This document shows positions 2,812 through 60,628 of a stretch of 64,000 nt of DNA, piece after piece. The DNA lies in contig JADZEM010000029.1 in the NCBI GenBank assembly GCA_020850535.1, forward strand, positions 1 to 64,000, in the 5' to 3' direction. Below the pieces are notes generated by a model, which saw nothing but the letters and a program-made list of their open reading frames with translations, was not told the origin of the DNA and did no database searches. The DNA comes from Chloroflexota bacterium. Lineage in GTDB: Bacteria; Chloroflexota; UBA6077; JACCZL01. Made by a program: the position numbers and the translations under genes. The number at the start of each line of letters is the position of its first letter. Position 1 is the stretch's first letter.

Positions 2812-3149
2812 GCTTCAATGTGCATGGTCGCTTCAGTTGACGAGACGGCGTCGACTGGCGGCACGCCGTAGTTGTCAGGATACCTCGACTCGTCGAATGT
2901 CGGATTGAGGATCTGGAGATCAGCATCGACCGATGCGGGCGCGCCGACCAGCGTCCCCAAGTACTCCAGATCGTGTGTGCGAGGAGCGAGGTCGGTGGTA
3001 CGTTCGATGAACAGCGCCTTGAGCGCCTTCTCCGTGGCCTGCTGGGCGAACCAGGACGCGGCATACCACTGGCCGTTCGCCAGCATGATGTCGCCGCTGT
3101 GGAGGTCGGCTTCGGCCTGCCGCCACCATGCAAGAGTGTCCGGTCTCAT
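2772..3149 (-). CDS. HEPN-domain protein (putative toxin of a HEPN/MNT pair)
   Basis: 125 residues, a four-helix HEPN protein with the typical start RPDTLAWWRQAEADLHSG and core WFAQQATEKALKALFIE. The expected R-x(4-6)-H RNase motif is not in its classic form; the nearest is the RTHDLEYL segment. This could be an active toxin or a non-nucleolytic substrate-binding HEPN partner. It is followed, with overlap, by the MNT gene. A TATACT box at 3162-3167 lies 12 bp before the ATG, implying a very short leader. Confidence 0.8.
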   Translation of the reverse strand: MRPDTLAWWRQAEADLHSGDIMLANGQWYAASWFAQQATEKALKALFIERTTDLAPRTHDLEYLGTLVGAPASVDADLQILNPTFDESRYPDNYGVPPVDAVSSTEATMHIEACRRVLGWVLPLL

Positions 3150-3161
3150 GGCTCTCTAGAC

Positions 3162-3167
3162 AGTATA
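3162..3167 (-). promoter_or_regulatory. -10 box of the HEPN/MNT operon
   Basis: TATACT on the minus strand, 12 bp upstream of the HEPN ATG. The -35 is weak (TGACCA at 3187-3192 with a long spacer). Predicted transcription would start only about six bases before the start codon. Confidence 0.45.
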
Positions 3168-3237
3168 GCGATGACCGGACACGGGATGGTCATTGGCCGC
3201 CACCGACACGCTGTCAGCACAGCATCCGCCGAGTGAA

Positions 3238-3261
3238 GCGCCCCGCGCCAGCACGGGGCGC
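3238..3261 (-). terminator. Hairpin downstream of RNase J
   Basis: An 8-bp GC stem, GCGCCCCG / CGGGGCGC, with an 8-nt loop, 52 bp beyond the rnj stop and between convergent transcription from rnj and the HEPN promoter region. No T tract, so termination strength is uncertain. Confidence 0.5.
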
Positions 3262-3312
3262 TCGTCGGACTCGGGGGCTGGTGGCGGCGACGCACCGCCA
3301 GCCCTGCCCTGG

Positions 3313-5025
3313 TTAGACCTCCGTCACCACCGAGAGGATCATCGGGCGGCGGCGGATGCGCTCGTAGATGAACCCGCTGAGCACCTCGCGGATCTTGCCG
3401 ACCAGGAAGCCGTAGCTCGGCAGGTTGCCGGACGACTCGTCGTCGCGGTCGTCTCCCGGGACGCGGCGTGGCCGCAGCACCTTGTGCAGCGCGTCCGTCA
3501 GGACGTCCCGCGCCTCGTCCAGGATCGCGTCCTGGCGCGGGTCCACGATGCCGCGCGAGATCAGATCCGGACCGCCGATCAACTCGCCGGTCTCACGGTC
3601 GATCACGATCGACGCGATCAGGACGCCATCGCCGGCCAGCCGCTTGCGGTCGCGCAGCACGACGCTGGTGACCTCGCCCACCGTCACGCCGTCAACCAGC
3701 ACCGAGCCGGAGGGCACCGTCCCGTTCAGCTCGATGCGGTCCTCTTCGATGTCGATGACTTCGCCGATGTCGGCGATCAGGATGTTCCCGGAGGGCATGC
3801 CCGACCGGACGGCCAGCTCTTTGTAGAGCACCAGCATGCGGTACTCGCCGTGGATCGGCACGCAGTACTTCGGGCGCAACAGGCCGAGCATGTGGGTCAG
3901 CTCGTCCTGGCTGGAGTGCCCGGACACGTGTACGCCCTCGTTGATCGCCCGGTAGATCACCTTCGCGCCGCGCCGGTAGAGGTTGTCGATGGCCCGCGCC
4001 ACCGTCTCCTCGTTGCCGGGGATCGGGCCGGCGCTGAAGATGACCGTGTCCTCCTCGATGATCTTGATGTTCGGGTGGTCGCCCATGGCCATGCGGCTCA
4101 GGACGGAGGTCGGCTCACCCTGGCTGCCCGTCGCCAGCACCACCAGCTTGTTCGGCGGGATGGTGTTGCTCTCGCGCAGGTCGATCAGCGTCCCTGGAGG
4201 CGCGCCCAGATAGCCGATCTCGCCGGCCACCTTCAGGTTCTGGTCCATGCTGCGCCCGGCCACCGCCACCCGCCGCCCGAGCTTGTGGGCGATGTGGACG
4301 ACCTGCCGCAGGCGCGCCAGGTTCGAGGCGAACGTGGTCACGATGACACGCCCGTGCGCCTCGCCGATCAGCTTTTCAAGGTTCTCGCTGACCATCGACT
4401 CGGAGCCGGTCCAGCCCGGGTTCTCGACGCGCACGCAGTCCGAGAACAGGGCCAGCATGCCCTCGTCACCCAGGCGGCGCAGCGCGTCCTCGTCGGTGCT
4501 GCGCCCATCGACGGGGTTCTTGTCAAACTTGTAGTCGCCGGTGTGGAAGACCGTGCCGGCCGGCGTCTTGATGGCGAACCCGACAGAGCCCGGCACGCTG
4601 TGGTTGACGAAGACCGGCTCGATGGTGAACGGGTCGAGGTCGAGGATCTCGCCCGGCTCGAACTCGACCAGCTTGACCTTGTCGAGGACGCGGTGCTCCT
4701 TGAGCTTGGTCGCGATCAACCCGAGCGTCATCTTGGTGCCGTAGATCGGGACCGGCTCGGCGCGCTCAAGCTGCATCACCAGGAACGGCAGCGCGCCGAT
4801 GTGATCCTCGTGGCCGTGGGTGATGATGATGGCGCGAAGGTCGTCCGCCGCCTCGGTCACGTACTCGAAGTTTGGAATGACGAGATCGACGCCGAGCAGC
4901 TCGGCCTCGGGGAACTTCACCCCGGCGTCGACCATCAACATCTGGTCGTCGTACTCAAAAACCGTCGAGTTCTTGCCGACCTCTCCGACGCCGCCGAGGA
5001 GGATCGCGCGTAGCGCTTGATCCAC
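3313..5025 (-). CDS. rnj: Ribonuclease J
   Basis: 570 residues, the usual RNase J length plus a short tail. It has a metallo-beta-lactamase domain with the zinc motif THGHEDHIGAL near residue 70 and HTGDYKFD further on, a beta-CASP insertion (ATGSQGEPTSVLSRMA, HVSGHSSQDEL), and a C-terminal domain with LISRGIVDPRQD. The enzyme carries out 5'-3' exonucleolytic and endonucleolytic mRNA decay and rRNA maturation in bacteria lacking an RNase E-centred system. It starts at ATG 5025 and is divergent from nrdR across a 71-bp gap. Confidence 0.95.
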   Translation of the reverse strand: MDQALRAILLGGVGEVGKNSTVFEYDDQMLMVDAGVKFPEAELLGVDLVIPNFEYVTEAADDLRAIIITHGHEDHIGALPFLVMQLERAEPVPIYGTKMTLGLIATKLKEHRVLDKVKLVEFEPGEILDLDPFTIEPVFVNHSVPGSVGFAIKTPAGTVFHTGDYKFDKNPVDGRSTDEDALRRLGDEGMLALFSDCVRVENPGWTGSESMVSENLEKLIGEAHGRVIVTTFASNLARLRQVVHIAHKLGRRVAVAGRSMDQNLKVAGEIGYLGAPPGTLIDLRESNTIPPNKLVVLATGSQGEPTSVLSRMAMGDHPNIKIIEEDTVIFSAGPIPGNEETVARAIDNLYRRGAKVIYRAINEGVHVSGHSSQDELTHMLGLLRPKYCVPIHGEYRMLVLYKELAVRSGMPSGNILIADIGEVIDIEEDRIELNGTVPSGSVLVDGVTVGEVTSVVLRDRKRLAGDGVLIASIVIDRETGELIGGPDLISRGIVDPRQDAILDEARDVLTDALHKVLRPRRVPGDDRDDESSGNLPSYGFLVGKIREVLSGFIYERIRRRPMILSVVTEV

Positions 5026-5085
5026 TGTGCCTCCTTGTCTTCTTGAGGGATTGAACCACGCCGCCAGAAGTCAGACAAGGCGTGG

Positions 5086-5091
5086 TAGACT
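5086..5091 (+). promoter_or_regulatory. -10 box of nrdR (leaderless candidate)
   Basis: TAGACT ends five bases before the nrdR ATG at 5097, so the expected transcription start coincides with the start codon. No convincing -35 is visible. Confidence 0.4.
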
Positions 5092-5096
5092 GTCGT

Positions 5097-5549
5097 ATGC
5101 GCTGTCCATTCTGCTCGTCGCGCGATACGCGCGTGCTCGATAAGCGAGACGCCGACGATGTCTCCATGACGAGGCGCCGGCGCGAGTGCCAGCAGTGCAA
5201 CGGTCGATTCACGACCTACGAGCGGCCGGAGATCTCCACACTCATCATTGTGAAGAAAGACGGCCGCCGGCAGCCTTTCAATCGTGAGAAACTGCGGTCC
5301 AGTATTCAGACCGCGTGCACCAAGCGGCCCGTCAGCGCCGAGATCATCGAGCGCATGGTCGATCAGATTGAGAGCGCCCTCCGCAAGCGAGATGGCCTTG
5401 AGGTGCCGAGCAGCGTGGTCGGCGATCTGGTGATCGAGGGCTTGCGCGGCCTCGACCAGGTCGCCTACATCCGTTTTGCATCAGTGTACCGTGCCTTTGC
5501 CGACGTATCGTCATTTGAGGACGAGCTGCGGAAGCTCCTCAAGAACTAA
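5097..5549 (+). CDS. nrdR: Transcriptional repressor NrdR
   Basis: 150 residues, full length for NrdR. The N-terminal zinc ribbon has CPFC near residue 3 and CQQC further on, followed by GRFTTYER. The central ATP-cone domain starts with VKKDGRRQPFNREKL. NrdR represses ribonucleotide reductase operons by sensing ATP/dATP. The start at ATG 5097 (MRCPFC) matches the family; an upstream GTG would add five residues. No ribonucleotide reductase gene lies in this window. Confidence 0.95.
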   Translation: MRCPFCSSRDTRVLDKRDADDVSMTRRRRECQQCNGRFTTYERPEISTLIIVKKDGRRQPFNREKLRSSIQTACTKRPVSAEIIERMVDQIESALRKRDGLEVPSSVVGDLVIEGLRGLDQVAYIRFASVYRAFADVSSFEDELRKLLKN

Positions 5550-5567
5550 GGCGGTCGTCAGAGGCGC

Positions 5568-6605
5568 ATGCACGGTCACGACTCTGAGGATCGCACGCCG
5601 GCTGCCGGGACTGGCGGTGGCGTCGGCACGCCCGATCTGACCACGCCCTCATCAAGCGATGTGCGGCTCCCACGGGTGGGCCAGACCTGGGTTGGCGGCC
5701 GGATCGCGGTGATCGTCGCCGTACTGGGACTGGTCGGGGCGGCGCTCGGGGGCGGGGTCGTGGCCGTCGTGGCGCAGTCCGGGCCGTCGATGGATGCCAT
5801 CCTGACGGCGGGCATCACCCTGGTGGCCATCGCCCTGCTGGTCGGCGGGCTGCTGCTCACGGCGGGCGGCCTGGGCTACTACGTCCTTGCCCCCGGCTTT
5901 ATGGGCCGCGCGATGGCTGCGCGCGGCTTCGGATCGCACCGGCTGGTCATCGCCTGCACGCTGCTCATCGCGCTGCTCGCGAACGGCCCGCCGCTGCTCT
6001 GGGCGGCCTGGGCCGGGCGCGCCGGCATCTGCACGCCGGCCGGCCTCGTGACGGCGGCGCTCTCGGTGGACGCTGCGCTGCTCGGCGTGACGTACCTGCG
6101 GTTCATCCGCCCGGGCGTCCTGACGCTCGCCGACCTCGGGCTTGACCGCACGGCGACCGTCCGCCACGTCGGGCTGGGCCTGCTGGTCGGCGTCTCGGTG
6201 CTGGTCATCAGCGCGATGATCCAGGCGGCCATGTCGGCGTTGGGCATCCGCCAGACCCAGCTTGCGGATCTCTCGTGCATCCGGCAGTTTCCGCTGCTCG
6301 GCTTCTTCGGCGTGGTCTTCGCCGGGGCGATACTCGCGCCCATCGCCGAGGAGATCTACTTTCGCGGGTACGTGTTCGGCAGCTACCTACGGACGCAGCG
6401 GCCCGTGGTAGCTTATGCCGCGACGGGCCTCATCTTTGCCGCGCTGCACGGTAACCTGCCCGCGCTCCTGCCGATTCTCGCGCTCAGCGTCGTGTTCTGC
6501 TACGCCTACCAGCGGACGGGCAGTCTCGTGCCGAGCATGGTGGGGCATGCGCTGAACAACACGGCGGCGTTCTGTATCCTGTACTTCACCAACGCCCAGG
6601 TCTGA
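5568..6605 (+). CDS. CPBP-family intramembrane metalloprotease
   Basis: 345 residues with about eight hydrophobic segments. The C-terminal CPBP (Abi) domain carries EEIYFRGYVFG (the EExxxR motif), FAALHGN and GHALNNTAAF, which supply the catalytic Glu and His residues of this Rce1-like family. A polar N-terminal region of about 40 residues precedes the first membrane segment. Eighteen bases downstream of nrdR and likely co-transcribed. Substrates of bacterial members are mostly unknown (prenyl-protein processing, bacteriocin immunity). Confidence 0.88.
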   Translation: MHGHDSEDRTPAAGTGGGVGTPDLTTPSSSDVRLPRVGQTWVGGRIAVIVAVLGLVGAALGGGVVAVVAQSGPSMDAILTAGITLVAIALLVGGLLLTAGGLGYYVLAPGFMGRAMAARGFGSHRLVIACTLLIALLANGPPLLWAAWAGRAGICTPAGLVTAALSVDAALLGVTYLRFIRPGVLTLADLGLDRTATVRHVGLGLLVGVSVLVISAMIQAAMSALGIRQTQLADLSCIRQFPLLGFFGVVFAGAILAPIAEEIYFRGYVFGSYLRTQRPVVAYAATGLIFAALHGNLPALLPILALSVVFCYAYQRTGSLVPSMVGHALNNTAAFCILYFTNAQV

Positions 6606-41771: not shown

Positions 41772-41989
41772 CAGGGCGATTGCATGTTCATTGGTGTATC
41801 CGAAGCATCATGGAACGGGCGGTCGGGGACTGAAGTCCCCGCCTACAGTCATTCAGTCGCTGCGCGACGGCCGTCGGGCACGGGCAGGCACTGGTGCGAC
41901 TGGAGCGTCGCGCAGCGACTGCAGGCGTGTAGGCGGGGCTTTCAAGCCCCGACGCGGCGGCACGACGACATCAACATGCAATCGCCCTG
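41772..41989. mobile_element. MITE-like palindromic element, copy 1
   Basis: 218 bp with perfect 16-bp terminal inverted repeats (CAGGGCGATTGCATGT at the left, its complement at the right) and no coding capacity. Directly flanked by a perfect 10-bp duplication GGGAGACAGG (41762-41771 and 41990-41999). Inside, further inverted segments (GTCGGGGACTGAAGTCCCCG with GGGGCTTTCAAGCCCC; GTCGCTGCGCGAC with GTCGCGCAGCGAC) let the whole element fold into one long hairpin or nested cruciforms. Two more copies lie at 57994 and 58221. Confidence 0.85.
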
Positions 41990-54206: not shown

Positions 54207-55005
54207 CCTGACCGCGACCCCGCAGGCGCTGCATGCACTCCGGCTCCCACCGGGCGCTGACCAGGCACCGTCTCCGCTCGCCCGGATGATCGTCGCACAG
54301 ACCGCCGCCGAGCTGCGCCTCTCGTTGCGGCGGGGCGAGAGCGTCCTGATCACCCTGATCATCCCGCCGTTGCTGCTGGTCTTCTTCGGCCTGGTGGACC
54401 TGATGCCGATCCCGCCCGAGCGCCGCGCCGAGTATCTGGTGCCGGGCATTCTGGCGCTCGCCATCATGTCCACGGCGATGGTCAGCACCGGCATCGCGAC
54501 GGCCTTCGAGCGGTACTACAAGGTGCTCAAGCGGCTGGGCGTGTCCCCGCTGCCGCGCGGCGGCCTGCTGACGGCGAAGATCGCGGCGATCCTGGTGATG
54601 GAGGGCATCCAGACGCTGCTGATCGTCGGGGTCGCGGCGCTGGTGCTCGGCTGGCGGCCGACGGGCACGCTGGTGCTGACGCCCGTCGCGCTGGTGCTGG
54701 GGACGGCGGCGTTCGGCGGTCTGGGCCTGCTGATGGCCGGCGCCTTGCGCGCCGAGGCGACGTTGGCTGTTGCGAACGGGCTGTACATCGCGTTTCTGCT
54801 GATGGGTGGCATCGTGTTTCCGACCACCCACCTCGGGCCGTGGCTGGCCGGGCCGGCGGCGCTGCTGCCGAGTACCGCCCTGGCGGAAGCCTTGCGGGGC
54901 GCGCTCGGGGCGACTGACGCCGTGCCGATCCTCAGCTGGCTGGTGCTGGCTGGCTGGGCGCTGCTGATGCCGCTGGCCGCGATGCTGACGTTCCGTTGGG
55001 AGTGA
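54199..55005 (+). CDS. ABC-2 transporter permease
   Basis: 268 residues from GTG 54199, which follows GGAGG. Six membrane segments beginning VLITLIIPPLLLVFFGLVDL; the ABC-2 pattern includes PGILALAIMSTAMVSTGIAT and RYYKVLKRLGVSPLPR. With the preceding ATPase it forms an exporter of unknown substrate, possibly drug or lipid. The stop codon falls in the first unit of a tandem repeat. Confidence 0.9.
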   Translation: MPDLTATPQALHALRLPPGADQAPSPLARMIVAQTAAELRLSLRRGESVLITLIIPPLLLVFFGLVDLMPIPPERRAEYLVPGILALAIMSTAMVSTGIATAFERYYKVLKRLGVSPLPRGGLLTAKIAAILVMEGIQTLLIVGVAALVLGWRPTGTLVLTPVALVLGTAAFGGLGLLMAGALRAEATLAVANGLYIAFLLMGGIVFPTTHLGPWLAGPAALLPSTALAEALRGALGATDAVPILSWLVLAGWALLMPLAAMLTFRWE

Positions 55006-55042
55006 CCCGACCGGGAGTGACCCGACCGGGAGTGACCCGACC
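54998..55042. repeat. Tandem repeat, 15 bp x 3, over the permease stop codon
   Basis: Three perfect copies of GGGAGTGACCCGACC (54998-55012, 55013-55027, 55028-55042), followed by degenerate copies to about 55085. Each unit contains a TGA, so contraction or expansion would not alter the permease C-terminus. Confidence 0.92.
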
Positions 55043-55102
55043 GCCTCTGACCTGACCACAGGTGACCCGCCCGCGAGCGACCCGACGAAGAGGAGCCGCC
55101 GT

Positions 55103-56179
55103 TTGATTCAGAGACCGATGCTCGGCGTCGCGCGGGTGGCGCTGCTGTGCCTGCTGCCGCTGCTGCTCGGCGCGTGCGGGTTGCTCGGCGGCTCACCGAC
55201 CGCCGAGAAGCCGGCCGCCGAGGCGTCTCCGACCCTGCTGCCGCCGCCGAAGCCGATCTCGTCGCCCGAGCCGGGCGTTGCACTGTCTCCCGGCCTGATC
55301 GCGCCCGGCAGCCCGTCGCCCGTCGCGCCGCCGACGCCCGTGCCGCCGCCCGACCTCAACGCGAAGCCGCAAGCCAGCGCCGCCGTTTCCGGCGGCCCCC
55401 GCGCAACCGTCGCCAACACCGAAGGCCAGGGGGCGAACATGCGGGCCGAGCCAGCGGCGACCGCCCGGCTGATCCGGACCGTCAAGGAGGGAACCGAGCT
55501 TGAGGTGATCGGCGACGAGCGCGAGGCCGGCGGCCGAACGTGGCGGAATGTCCGCGACTCCGCCGACGGATCGGTCGGGTGGATCGTCAGCGAGCTGCTC
55601 GCGATCTCCGAGCCGCCCGCCGCCGCGCCTCCGCAAGCTGCACCCTCGCCGGTTGCGAAGCCGGCTGGTGAGCCGAAGCCGGCCACGGAAGGCAGCCCGG
55701 CCCCCCAGCCGAAGCCGAGCGGCTCACCGGCCGCCGGAGCACCGGCGGCCTCGGGTCCACCGGGCGCGGCGAAGCCCGGCCAGCGTATCGGCGACGAAGA
55801 CCGCGCCTATCTGGGCGCCCTCCAGGGGCCGGTCGACGCCCTGGGCACGGCCATCAGCTCCGCCAACGAGCAGATCGAGCGGGCCGGTGGCAAGCCGGAC
55901 ATCGCGTCCGATCCGGCCTGGCGGCGGGATACCGAGGCCGTGATCCAGTCGTTGCGCGACGCTTCCTCAAAGATCCGGGCTGCGAAGCCCGGGCCGAGCA
56001 CCGCCCCGGTGCAGCGCTACGCCCTCAACGCCGCCGACCGCGCCGACGAGGCTGCTGACGGCCTGAGCGCCGCTCTCAACTCGGGCGACACGCGCGGGCT
56101 GACCAACGTGCGTACCACCCTCGTGCGGATGCTCGCCGAGATCAACAACATGAACCTGACGCTGCTCGATCTCCAGTAG
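55103..56179 (+). CDS. SH3-domain lipoprotein
   Basis: 358 residues from TTG 55103, which has AGGAG seven bases upstream; ATG 55118 is the alternative. Signal peptide with lipobox LLLGACGLL, a Pro/Ala-rich linker, then one SH3b domain (NTEGQGANMRAEPAATARLI to GGRTWRNVRDSADG and GWIVSELL). A second Pro-rich linker precedes a C-terminal helical domain (GPVDALGTAISSANEQIERA to RTTLVRMLAEINNMNLTLLD). Likely a surface protein binding wall or polysaccharide. Confidence 0.78.
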   Translation: MIQRPMLGVARVALLCLLPLLLGACGLLGGSPTAEKPAAEASPTLLPPPKPISSPEPGVALSPGLIAPGSPSPVAPPTPVPPPDLNAKPQASAAVSGGPRATVANTEGQGANMRAEPAATARLIRTVKEGTELEVIGDEREAGGRTWRNVRDSADGSVGWIVSELLAISEPPAAAPPQAAPSPVAKPAGEPKPATEGSPAPQPKPSGSPAAGAPAASGPPGAAKPGQRIGDEDRAYLGALQGPVDALGTAISSANEQIERAGGKPDIASDPAWRRDTEAVIQSLRDASSKIRAAKPGPSTAPVQRYALNAADRADEAADGLSAALNSGDTRGLTNVRTTLVRMLAEINNMNLTLLDLQ

Positions 56180-56302
56180 TGCCTGTTCGACATGACCTGA
56201 GGTGCGCCACGGATACGTCGTACACTGTGTTGCAGCCCGTTGCAGTTCGCGGAACTTCGAGTGGGAGGATGGCGCAGGGCGCTCAGGTCGGTCCCAGTGC
56301 CG

Positions 56303-57541
56303 ATGATTCGGCGCGTGCGGATCAACAACTTCCGCAGCATTGAGGACTGCGACATCGCGCTGGGGCCGCTAACCATCCTGATCGGGCCGAATGGCTCCGG
56401 CAAGAGCAATTTCCTGCATGCGCTGGATCTCGTGGCCGACGCGCTGAACGGTGGTCTGGAGGCCGCTGTTCTCAGGCGGGGCGGCATCGTCAGCCTCCTG
56501 TCGCGCTGGGCAAGCGACGACCCGAATGCTCGGCTCCGAATTGAGATCGAAGTATCGATCTCCGATCAGCAAGGTGCCACGTACAGTATCGAGCTTGCCA
56601 GATCTGCCGGCGCCGCACGCATAGTCGAGGAGCGCTGCACGGTGCGGCGTTCACCGACAGGGCCTGCAGCCAGCGATGTCGAGGTGGCGAACTATGTCAT
56701 TCGCCAAGACGGGAGCGAATGGCATGATGCTCGTGGAGTGCAGTTTGTGCCGCGGATCGTTCCCGACGGAGGGACACAGACGCTCGTGCTCCCGCACCTT
56801 GCCGATCATGTGCCGTACGGAACGATTCTCCGTGCCCTGCGCGGGCTGGCCTTCTACAGCCTGCACGATGCACCGATGCGGAAGCCACAAGAAATCGATG
56901 GCAGCGAGCGTCTTCGCGCTGATGGGTCGAATGTCGCGGGCATCTACAGGCGGCTGCAGAGCACGAATCAGTTTGGCTGGCGACCGGCTGACGCGGTGAC
57001 GGATGTACTCCGCGTGGTCACACCGGGAGTCAGCGGTATCTCAGTATCGACGATCGACAATTTCGAGGTGCTTCGGTTCGAGCAGGTGCTCGAGCGTGCA
57101 GAAGCGCCGGTCTCGTTCTCCGCGAGTGAAATGTCCTACGGCACGCTTCGGACCCTTGGCGTGCTCGTCGCACTGTACCAGGGCAGTATGGCGGGAGGAT
57201 CGTCCGTCACGCTCGTGGAGTTGGAGGAGCCGGAAAGTGCTGTCCATCCGGGCGCCGCACCGCTCCTGCTGGAGGCGATGCAGGAGGCAGCGCTTTCAAC
57301 CCAGGTGTTTGCGACCTCCCACAGCGCGGCGATGCTGGATCAGGACGACCTCGACGTGTCGATGCTTCGGGTGGTGTCGCGGCATGGTGGACGGACGACG
57401 ATCGGTGCGGTCGATACTGTGAGTCAGAGCCTGATCGCGGCTGGGCTCTTTACCGCTGGCGAGTTGATGCGGTCACGGCAGTTCCGCCCCGAGCGGGACG
57501 TGCGTGCGTTTGAGTCCAGAACCGCGGTTTCGGCCTCGTGA
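56303..57541 (+). CDS. AAA family ATPase (RecF/OLD-like)
   Basis: 412 residues from ATG 56303 (MIRRVRINNFRSIEDCD); the frame also opens at 56240. Walker A IGPNGSGKSNFLHAL, ABC-type signature region EMSYGTLRTLGVL, Walker B VTLVELEEPESAVHPG and the His switch in FATSHSAAMLD. This AAA_15/AAA_21 group is common in defence islands, often with a DUF4276 gene directly downstream as here. That partner is broken. Codon usage is slightly less GC-rich than the neighbours, which hints at acquisition. Confidence 0.88.
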   Translation: MIRRVRINNFRSIEDCDIALGPLTILIGPNGSGKSNFLHALDLVADALNGGLEAAVLRRGGIVSLLSRWASDDPNARLRIEIEVSISDQQGATYSIELARSAGAARIVEERCTVRRSPTGPAASDVEVANYVIRQDGSEWHDARGVQFVPRIVPDGGTQTLVLPHLADHVPYGTILRALRGLAFYSLHDAPMRKPQEIDGSERLRADGSNVAGIYRRLQSTNQFGWRPADAVTDVLRVVTPGVSGISVSTIDNFEVLRFEQVLERAEAPVSFSASEMSYGTLRTLGVLVALYQGSMAGGSSVTLVELEEPESAVHPGAAPLLLEAMQEAALSTQVFATSHSAAMLDQDDLDVSMLRVVSRHGGRTTIGAVDTVSQSLIAAGLFTAGELMRSRQFRPERDVRAFESRTAVSAS

Positions 57542-57977
57542 CCGAGCTTCCTCGTATCGTATCCGTCGTTGAAGGTGAGGCTGAAGACAGGGCGAACGCC
57601 GTTCCGGCACGGTCAACCACCGGGCTTGCTTGGTGACGAACTGGCCCGAGTTCTGGAGCCGCTGGCAGGCGGTCGGCCACTGGCGGTCCTGTGGGCTGAG
57701 CGTGAGTACGAAGCCTGGCTCGTTGCAGGCCGACCTGTTGATGCACGATCGCGGCCTGACTGACGGCGTGGAAGTTCCCGGTGATCCGGATGCGCTTCGG
57801 GATCCGAAGGGGTGGCTCACGTCGAACATGCGAGAGCGACAGGCCTACGCACCGATGAGGCATCAGACACGTTTCACCGCGATGTTCAATATCGATGGAG
57901 CACTCGGACGTTCGCCGTCGTTCGCTCGGGCCTATCACGAGATCGAGCGACTGGTTCGTACAGTGCACCAACGTTGA
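57538..57977 (+). pseudogene. Decayed DUF4276 gene, partner of the AAA ATPase
   Basis: Reads through three frames. The start GTG 57538 gives VTELPRIVSVVEGEAE (typical VEGEGE opening), then the frame changes to PPGLLGDELARVLEPLAGG and LAVLWAEREYEAWLVAG, then near 57725 to GVEVPGDPDALRDPKGWL, NIDGALGRSPSFARAYHEI and a stop at 57977. The segments line up with successive parts of DUF4276, but a central part with the acidic DADD-type motif is missing and at least two frameshifts are needed. Confidence 0.7.
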
Positions 57978-57993
57978 CAGGACACCTGCAGCT

Positions 57994-58210
57994 CAGGGCG
58001 ATTGCATGTTCATTGGTGTTCCCGGAGCATCATGGAACGGGCGGTCGGGGACTGAAGTCCCCGCCTACACTCCTGCAGTCGCTGCGCGACGGACGCAGGG
58101 AACGGCTGGGGCTGGCGAGCCTGGAGCGTCGCGCAGCGACTGCAGGAGTGTAGGCGGGGCTTTCAAGCCCCGACGCGGCGACACGACGCGCTCAACATAC
58201 GATTGCACTG
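57994..58210. mobile_element. MITE-like palindromic element, copy 2
   Basis: 217 bp. The left end CAGGGCGATTGCATGT is intact and the inner inverted segments are conserved. The right end has decayed (AACATACGATTGCACTG instead of AACATGCAATCGCCCTG). Preceded by ACCTGCAGCT (57984-57993), which recurs only after copy 3. Separated from copy 3 by ten bases. Confidence 0.8.
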
Positions 58211-58220
58211 GTAGCAGCAT

Positions 58221-58438
58221 CAGGGCGATTGCATGTCTGTTGGTGCTCCCGAGGCACCGTCACACGCGAGGTCGGGGACTGAAGTCCCCGCCTACAGTCA
58301 CGCCGTCGCTGCGCGACGGACACCGGGCACGGACAGGGACTGGTGCGACTGGAGCGTCGCGCAGCGACTGCAGGATGGTAGGCGGGGACTTCAGTCCCCG
58401 ACGCCGCGGCACGACGACATCAACATGCAATCGCCCTG
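58221..58438. mobile_element. MITE-like palindromic element, copy 3
   Basis: 218 bp, same length as copy 1, with both 16-bp termini intact. Followed by ACCTGCAGCT (58439-58448), matching the ten bases before copy 2. The pair 57994-58438 therefore sits as one 445-bp unit inside a single 10-bp target duplication. Confidence 0.85.
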
Positions 58439-58540
58439 ACCTGCAGCTGCTGTGCTTCGGAGAACGTGCGCTCGATGCAGTAGAATGCCGAGAACTGACT
58501 GAATCATTCGTCCGGGCAGAGTGCCGGCGCCGAGGATGAG

Positions 58541-60091
58541 ATGCGCGCGCTGATCAGCGTGTTCGACAAGACTGGTGTGGTGGACTTCGCTCGTGGGCTG
58601 GCCGATCGCGGCGTCGAGCTGATCGCCACTGGCAACACCGAAGCCATGCTCCGTGAGAGTGGCGTCGCCGTGCGCGGTATTCAGGAGCTGACCGGCTTCC
58701 CCGAGATCCTGGGCGGTCGCGTCAAGACCTTGCACCCGCTGATCTACGCCGGCATTCTCGGGTTGCGCCATGACCCCGGCCATCTCGAAGAGATGGACCG
58801 CGTCGGCGCATCGCCCATCGATTTCGTGGTCTGTAACCTCTACCCGTTCCGCGAGACCGCCAAGGGCTCCGGCCAGGATCTCGCGAACGTGCTGGAGAAC
58901 ATCGACATCGGCGGCGTGACGCTCCTGCGGGCGGCGGCCAAGAACTTCGCCCAGGTCGTGCCGATCTGCGACCCGATGGACTACGGGACCGTCCTCGACG
59001 AGCTGGCCAGCGACGCCGGCAACGTGGGCCAGGGGATTCGCAGGCGGCTGGCGGCCAAGGCGTTCCAGCACTGCGCCGTCTACGACACCCACATCTCGGG
59101 CTACCTGCGGAGCGCCGACGAGCTGTTCCCGGATCACCTGACGCTCGCCATGAAGAAGATCGGCGAGCTGCGGTACGGCGAGAACCCGCATCAGCTGGCC
59201 GCGTTCTATGCCGACAGCACCATCCGCAGCCTGCCGCGCGGCGTCGTCAGCGGCCGACAGCTACACGGCAAACAGCTCGCCTTCAATAACACCTACGACC
59301 TCGACGCTGCCTGGCGCATCGTGGCCGACTTCTCCGCGCCAACGGTCGCCATCGTCAAGCACGGCAACCCGGTCGGGCTGGCCTGCGGCGACGATCTCGC
59401 CGAGACCTATCGGCGGGCCGTGGCCGGCGATCCGCAAACGGCGTTCGGCGGCGCGATCAGCTTCAACCGGACCGTCAACGAGGCGGCCGCCCGCGAGATC
59501 GCCGAGGTCTTCTTCGAGGACTTGATCGCCCCGGACTACACCCCCGAGGCGCTGGCCGTCCTCCAGAAGAAGCGCGATCTCCGCATCATGGCGACCGGCT
59601 ACCAGCCGGAGCGGCCCGGCGAGATCGAGGCCGGCGACCTCGACTTCAAGCGCGTGGTGGGCGGCTGGCTGGTGCAGACCCGCGATGCCCTCCCCGAGAA
59701 CATGCTGACCCGCGACGTGGTCACCACGCGCCCGCCCACCCTCTCCGAGCTGACCAGCCTCCTCTTCGCGTGGCGGGCCGTCAAGCACGTCCACTCGCAC
59801 GGCATCGTGCTGGCGCGCGGCCTCCAGCTGGTCGGCCTGGGCGCCGGGCAGCCGAGCCGGGTAGACGCCGTCGATCTGGCCTGCCGGAAGGCCGGCGACC
59901 GTGCAGCCGGCGCGGTGATGGCGTCCGATGCCTTCTTCCCGTTCCCGGACGGTATCGAGCGGGCGGCGGCGGCCGGCGTCACGGCGGTCATCCACCCGGG
60001 CGGCTCGATCCGCGATCAGCAGGCCATCGAGGTGGCGAACCGTCACCACATGGCGATGATCTTCACCCACCAGCGACACTTCAAGCACTAG
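58541..60091 (+). CDS. purH: Bifunctional AICAR transformylase / IMP cyclohydrolase PurH
   Basis: 516 residues. The N-terminal IMP cyclohydrolase (MGS-like) domain has ALISVFDKTGVVDFARGL and GGRVKTLHPLIYAGIL. The C-terminal transformylase domain has GENPHQLAAFY, GKQLAFNNTYDLDAAWRI, the Lys-His catalytic pair in IVKHGNPVGLA, and SDAFFPFPDGIERA near the end. It catalyses the last two steps of de novo IMP synthesis. Start ATG 58541 after GAGGATGAG. Confidence 0.96.
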   Translation: MRALISVFDKTGVVDFARGLADRGVELIATGNTEAMLRESGVAVRGIQELTGFPEILGGRVKTLHPLIYAGILGLRHDPGHLEEMDRVGASPIDFVVCNLYPFRETAKGSGQDLANVLENIDIGGVTLLRAAAKNFAQVVPICDPMDYGTVLDELASDAGNVGQGIRRRLAAKAFQHCAVYDTHISGYLRSADELFPDHLTLAMKKIGELRYGENPHQLAAFYADSTIRSLPRGVVSGRQLHGKQLAFNNTYDLDAAWRIVADFSAPTVAIVKHGNPVGLACGDDLAETYRRAVAGDPQTAFGGAISFNRTVNEAAAREIAEVFFEDLIAPDYTPEALAVLQKKRDLRIMATGYQPERPGEIEAGDLDFKRVVGGWLVQTRDALPENMLTRDVVTTRPPTLSELTSLLFAWRAVKHVHSHGIVLARGLQLVGLGAGQPSRVDAVDLACRKAGDRAAGAVMASDAFFPFPDGIERAAAAGVTAVIHPGGSIRDQQAIEVANRHHMAMIFTHQRHFKH

Positions 60092-60160
60092 GTCTGAGGG
60101 GGCCGCCTCGCGATCCGAGACGTGAACGTGCCCCGCCCAGTACACCGCCGAGGCGATGCG

Positions 60161-60628
60161 ATGAGCGCGGACCCGGACTGCCACGGAGCCTGTGACGGAG
60201 CGGACGACCGAAATGGGCGGTCGTCGCTGCGGATGACGCCGCAGCGGCAGGCCATCCTTGACGCCGTGCGCGCCAGCAACGATCACCCGCGCGCCGCCGA
60301 CATCTACGAGCGGGTGCGGCGGGTGCAGCCGGGCATCGCGTTCGCCACGGTCTACAACGCCCTGCACGCCCTGGCCGATCACGGCATCATCCTGCAGCTC
60401 TCGTTTGGCGACCATGCCAGCCGCTTCGACGCGCGCACCGACCGTCACGATCACGCGCTCTGCACGGCATGCGGGGATCTCGTGGATGCGGTCGCGCCGC
60501 CCTCGTTGGAGACGATCCAGCAGGCCGCTGCCGAGACCGGCTTCAGCATCCGGGCCTATCACACCCAGCTGCTCGGCGTGTGCGCCGCCTGCCAGCAGTG
60601 CGCTGTGGCGGAGACCGCCCGCCTGTAG
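60161..60628 (+). CDS. Fur-family regulator (PerR/Zur-like)
   Basis: 155 residues from ATG 60161; an earlier GTG at 60122 adds 13. The winged helix is RMTPQRQAILDAVRASNDHP with FATVYNALHALADHGII; the metal site includes RHDHALCTACG, then GVCAACQQC. Second Fur paralog of the window; whether it senses peroxide or zinc cannot be decided. Nearby genes give no clue. Confidence 0.88.
   Translation: MSADPDCHGACDGADDRNGRSSLRMTPQRQAILDAVRASNDHPRAADIYERVRRVQPGIAFATVYNALHALADHGIILQLSFGDHASRFDARTDRHDHALCTACGDLVDAVAPPSLETIQQAAAETGFSIRAYHTQLLGVCAACQQCAVAETARL

Follow-up and report, generated by a model that had tools for sequence, protein, structure and literature searches.

In PARIS, an ABC ATPase (AriA) is paired with a separate TOPRIM-type protein (AriB), and AriA is reported to hold the AriB nuclease, which is set free in response to a phage trigger (PMC12409363). 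HEC-01 belongs to the Hma-embedded candidates (HECs) and consists of an ATPase, HEC-01A, that adjoins and overlaps a DUF4276 partner, HEC-01B; another report credits several HECs, HEC-06 among them, with activity (PMC12988326). The OLD nucleases (P2 Old, GajA and TsOLD) provide a third point of comparison. The term "DUF4276" was absent from the papers retrieved in our literature search, and no title among the matches listed concerned the decay of HEC-01.

We analyzed a window comprising bases 1–64000 of one contig (C29) from a 7.65 Mb genome assembled in 227 contigs. Within this 64,000-bp stretch, an ATPase gene is followed by the remains of a DUF4276 gene and by a pair of miniature foldback elements (MITEs) (Table 1). 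Our preferred reading, to which we assign a probability of about 0.82, is that the locus is a decayed HEC-01-type defence module with an open ATPase, a DUF4276 partner reduced to a pseudogene, and a separate MITE insertion downstream.

Table 1. Features of the window and damaged loci elsewhere. Borders of the three partner pieces (~57588, ~57617–57727, ~57728) were judged from the alignment and are approximate.
Feature	Position or locus	Strand	Remarks
ABC/OLD-type ATPase gene, HEC-01A-like	56303..57541	+	uninterrupted 412-aa frame
Partner remnant start, frame 1	57538..57588	+	GTG overlaps ATPase stop (GTGA); ends past VVEG motif
Deletion junction, ~55–65 partner codons missing, including the D-x-D strand	57589..57616	+	placed by alignment with intact partners
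Partner remnant, frame 2	57617..57727	+	EREYEAWLVA motif at end; PDLC04196 81–118, E 9.8e-5
Partner remnant, frame 3, C-terminal half to natural stop	57728..57977	+	PDLC04196 120–193, E 2.1e-16
Left 10-bp target site duplication	57984..57993	+	identical to right copy
Tandem pair of 217–218-bp foldback MITEs, CAGGGCGATTGCATG ends, 10-bp spacer	57994..58438	+	445 bp
Right 10-bp target site duplication	58439..58448	+	identical to left copy
Damaged-partner loci	window, L052, L092, L090, L106, L102, L165, L150		open ATPase; called by eye
Damaged-partner loci (rest)	L110, L060, L148, L113, L122, L154, L119, L101		open ATPase; called by eye
IS21-like insertion in HEC-01-type ATPase	L087, ~2834–6093 (G328 C242)		full-length DUF4276 partner downstream

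The ATPase frame contains no internal stop. Pfam comparison identified AAA_21 (E 7.1e-28) and also AAA_15, and the best profile in PADLOC-DB 2.0.0 was the HEC-01A profile PDLC04178 (E 1.6e-107, residues 2–401 of 412). With another HEC-01A profile as the runner-up (5e-41), these matches assign the gene to HEC-01A. It carries all four motifs that we take to be the P-loop/Walker A (GPNGSGKS), the signature (S-Y-G-T), Walker B (..EEPE) and the H-loop (TSHS). No Rfam match reached the gathering threshold in 55000–60200, and no sigma-70-like promoter or terminator pattern was found in 56100–58600. GC3 of the ATPase is 0.72 versus 0.87–0.91 in five neighbouring genes; judging from this composition, the HEC-01-type module was therefore probably acquired from elsewhere.

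The partner gene begins in a 4-bp overlap with the end of the ATPase and is readable only across three frames. Its position is that expected for HEC-01 – the ATPase-first order and the GTGA overlap are shared with intact pairs, annotated ones among them. Both larger pieces have HEC-01B PDLC04196 as their best PADLOC profile, and since they fall on consecutive profile positions, their resemblance to HEC-01B is more than chance. None of the three pieces matched Pfam, and the two scanned against NCBIfam gave no match. Alignment with intact pairs, a step proposed by an earlier, sequence-only reading of this DNA, placed a gap of ~55–65 codons in the first half and showed that the frame shifts again near 57,728. 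That reading's account of an intact ATPase beside a partner with at least two frameshifts and a missing central segment is thereby borne out. The deletion takes out the strand that bears D77 and the conserved D-x-D, while the C-terminal end is complete, with its stop codon at 57975–57977. The partner has thus been pseudogenized by a first-half deletion and a later frame change. What adjoins the ATPase is not an intact HEC-01B gene but a set of fragments spread over three frames and missing a central part, and on this pattern we interpret the locus as the remnant of a HEC-01 pair rather than a working one.

The two larger partner pieces retain 19 of 26 conserved positions, as against 19–25 of 26 in 12 intact partners. 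The frame-3 piece keeps 12 of 14, and the frame-2 piece keeps 7 of 12, a rough share because the aligner misplaced part of this piece. This suggests, but falls short of proving, a recent break. The description of the partner as "freshly" broken is thus supported only indirectly, and the break cannot be dated.

The defect comprises a loss of ~170–200 nt and another frame change, all within 440 bp, while five neighbouring genes (named by Pfam as an ABC ATPase, SH3, PurH, Fur and glycogen debranching enzyme) remain open. Sequencing error is for this reason an unlikely cause of the broken partner. An assembly or sequencing error that conceals a partner intact in the organism might be entertained for a genome in 227 contigs, but it would have to spare the ATPase as well as the five neighbours, and comparable damage is seen in further assemblies, one of them the complete genome of a named strain, Sorangium cellulosum So ce26 (L106). 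We consider such an error very improbable. The window PurH aligns end to end with the PurH of relatives. When the purH regions of two relatives (G001, 6.5 kb; G002, 15 kb) were compared with the window, the only strong match was in purH itself; elsewhere the best rows, with scores of 41 and 50 bits, were scattered and seem to reflect base composition. Since the purH neighbourhoods lack a clear match beyond purH, the site is not comparable in these relatives, and neither an intact nor an empty version of it was found in the two regions.

As the sequence-only reading had it, 17 bp separate the partner end at 57977 from the first base of the MITE pair at 57994; the target duplication starts 6 bp past the partner stop. 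A single unit folds as DNA far more strongly than 200 shuffles (z −10.9). The genome holds at least 40 matches to the pair at 327 bp or more, window copy included (40 of 502 candidates scored), some of which may be ends of one copy, because 6 of them start at the first base of a contig. Of 12 copies inspected, 6 are flanked by a 10-bp duplication in which no more than one position differs. The elements are therefore short non-coding foldbacks with terminal inverted repeats, a target duplication and many copies, as MITEs are. They often occur in tandem pairs whose 10-bp spacer has the same length as the target duplication. Further 217-bp copies are located at 41772–41989 of the window and at 1–216 of contig C119 (L084), so that copies lie near both HEC-01 pairs inspected (C29 and C119).

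The pair in the window inserted as one unit and is a bystander to the partner damage: the perfect 10-bp duplication starting just beyond the partner stop, along with at least 39 other long matches in the genome, marks the insertion as a separate event. Proximity could be taken to mean that the insertion itself caused the partner loss, but the perfect duplication flanks the MITE pair, the C-terminal half and stop of the partner survive in full beyond its border, and ~380–400 bp separate it from the deletion upstream, which makes that explanation scarcely credible. Mobile elements do lie beside the broken gene, as previously noted, but they are outside it and did not break it.

We compared the decayed module with the other described systems. 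Like PARIS, it combines an ABC ATPase with a separate gene for a putative TOPRIM-type protein, and AriA profiles also match the window ATPase (E 3.5e-25). However, HEC-01A scores 358 bits versus 87.6 for AriA (about 270 bits apart), and the two partner pieces scanned match HEC-01B profiles only; with neither an AriB-type partner nor an AriA-specific ATPase, the locus is not a PARIS system. TsOLD (6p74) resembles the ATPase in sequence over its first 45 residues (E 5.5e-13), and the ATPase model matches the TsOLD fold, with PtuA of retron Ec78/Septu, TsOLD and Rad50 among the top Foldseek rows (E 2.2e-15 to 3.2e-13). The window differs from the OLD nucleases in having the ATPase and the putative TOPRIM-like part as two genes, the second broken. 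Its agreement with HEC-01 extends to the best profiles of the ATPase and of the two larger partner pieces as well as to gene order and overlap, and it differs in that the window partner is a pseudogene.

Intact partners indicate what the window copy may once have encoded. E10, G11, D77, E113 and Y158 are invariant in 36 partners, and the conserved E, D-x-D and further acidic positions are presumably TOPRIM residues. An intact partner (L094) was modelled at pLDDT 96. Its top VIA row was the C-terminal region of an OLD protein (6nk8_B, Z 8.9, rmsd 4.3, 167 aligned), and further OLD nuclease C-terminal rows followed (6njw, 6njx and 6njv, Z 7.5–7.6). Argonaute MID rows (Z 8.2–8.3) were within 1 Z of the top OLD row and thus tied with it, and in Foldseek no PDB entry matched the partner below E 0.001. 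A TOPRIM-like fold of the DUF4276 partner is supported by this model but not proven, as a Z near 8 may reflect a common arrangement only.

The same genome encodes an intact HEC-01-type pair on contig C119 (L010/L084). As in the window, a HEC-01-type ATPase precedes the partner and a copy of the same MITE is nearby, ~150 bp upstream of the pair; the partner, in contrast to that of the window, is full-length (202 aa, DUF4276 E 1.6e-10). The C119 ATPase is 37% identical to the window ATPase and is not its closest relative in the tree. A third HEC-01A-type ATPase is encoded on contig C123, and a HEC-01A match at E 1e-40 was present in 45 of 400 genomes sampled from the phylum. These observations bear on the suggestion that the locus is a defence module that lost its effector, leaving the ATPase without a partner. 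The ATPase is of HEC-01A type and open, and its own partner is destroyed; the role of that partner as effector is one that we infer, and "without a partner" is uncertain because of the related intact pair on C119.

The window ATPase has one unusual feature, a tyrosine (Y279) in the ABC signature where its own clade has aspartate. Among 32 other ATPases of our first set, this position is D in 31 and E in 1, and in the wider set every other clade member that was aligned (L093 and L096 left out) has an acidic residue. The end branch of the window ATPase is also long, ranking third in the clade tree (1.53 vs a median of 0.77). These features would fit an ATPase that is also dead, making the whole module a pseudogene. 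Against this, the wider set of 116 homologues includes Y, F or H at 8 loci (D 104, E 4, Y 5, F 2, H 1), some beside full-length partners, so that Y is tolerated elsewhere and D279Y, however striking among the first 32, is insufficient on its own as proof of a dead ATPase. Moreover, only 1 of 19 strongly conserved columns deviates in the window ATPase (mean 0.82), and its 412 codons are free of stops. We regard a dead ATPase as unlikely. The eight ATPases with Y, F or H for D/E are L107, L114, L115, L138, L142, L168, L172 and L175; three are from Streptomyces.

We surveyed damage in related pairs through an ATPase-anchored census of 121 loci, 120 of them unique (L098 is the same as L057). It drew on the window, 30 loci from 58 family matches, three single loci, 80 of 238 confirmed loci, and 7 of 35. 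A contig scan with a single ATPase protein as query found no relative, whereas an alignment query recovered the 238 confirmed loci. Four loci were set aside: L174, which ends right after the ATPase, and three with damaged ATPases, one with a full partner (L058) and two in which no partner was found (L093, L096). In the remaining 116, all with an open ATPase, the partner is damaged in 16, full-length (a call supported by at least two other loci) in 85, and without a call in 15, some of which are full by profile (L095, L163, L129). The 16 damaged calls were made by eye, L101, L119 and L150 being the weakest, and other census loci may be misfiled because the automatic filter scored L102, L122 and L154 as full. 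The damage includes first-half loss (L052 of G001, and L092) and frame changes within or at the end of the first half (L090, L106, L102, L165). L113 and L154 lack an internal stretch, and L122 carries an insertion.

The opposite order is clear in one case. In G328, the ATPase is interrupted by an insertion while its 209-aa partner is full (DUF4276 E 5e-11). The coding regions of the insert resemble what we take to be an IS21-type transposase and helper ATPase; a group II intron was considered and rejected, as Rfam gave no match and the insert encodes these IS21-like proteins. Both genes are damaged in three further loci (L216, L226, L233). In L233, from a single-contig genome (G184 C1), the internal losses in ATPase and partner are in frame, and both frames consequently stay open.

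A partner-anchored control comprised 60 loci (L204–L263), 26 of which did not overlap the first set. Among these 26, both genes were full by profile span in 20 (one being L233, with internal losses in both), both were damaged in 2, and contig ends cut 2; an open ATPase accompanied a doubtful or stopped partner in the last 2, and a damaged ATPase with a full partner occurred in none. This outcome is compatible with partner-first decay but small, and we claim no significance for it, since the loci are too few and come partly from genomes chosen for an ATPase. In the main census, 16 to 1 looks lopsided because the ATPase, by its length, should be hit about twice as often. The hypothesis that the partner is more commonly damaged before the ATPase is nonetheless suggestive only, since the loci were found through their ATPases and a number of the 16 damage calls are weak.

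Two damaged loci from different phyla, L052 (G001 C212) and L092 (Verrucomicrobiales), have partners cut to the C-terminal half, with breakpoints within ~ten residues before the conserved xEFExW motif. Such a half could still be made and be useful, for example as a fragment that binds and sets the ATPase: in L052 it stands alone, in frame from a GTG that overlaps the ATPase stop, L092 keeps the same half alone with a similar breakpoint, and the frame-3 piece of the window keeps 12 of 14 conserved positions. In L092, however, the ATPase stop falls inside the half, and no ATG, GTG or TTG occurs in its frame from the last stop to the xEFExW motif. The window half is out of frame with its natural start, and a full-length partner is found in most loci (85 of 116 supported). 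A retained, functional half is accordingly improbable, and we return to the reading of a decayed module.

By analogy with PARIS or OLD-type systems, the ATPase of an intact pair would be the sensor as well as the holder. Its DUF4276 partner would be a TOPRIM-like nuclease that is harmful to the cell once a phage trigger releases it. The window copy, having lost the strand with the conserved D-x-D, would no longer be able to act. Under this scheme, early loss of the nuclease would be harmless and early loss of the ATPase could free the nuclease, which we propose as the reason that partner-first damage looks commoner. The window ATPase is probably drifting, unless it still helps the related intact pair on C119. 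A broader and rather doubtful proposal is that guard pairs decay in a fixed order – nuclease first, often through its catalytic first half, with the ATPase as the restraining component – and that the ATPase left behind persists for a while in the role of an immunity protein, neutralizing related partners, whether the one on C119 or others arriving on mobile DNA.

Taken singly, the window is a case of ordinary decay in a known candidate defence kind, and what makes it of interest is the decay rule that may lie behind it. From broken defence modules one can learn which component is safe for a cell to lose. Should partner-first damage be borne out in an unbiased sample, annotators would be cautioned that an ATPase match alone does not equal a working system, and the pattern would provide sequence evidence that HEC-01-type ATPases restrain DUF4276 proteins, as AriA does AriB.
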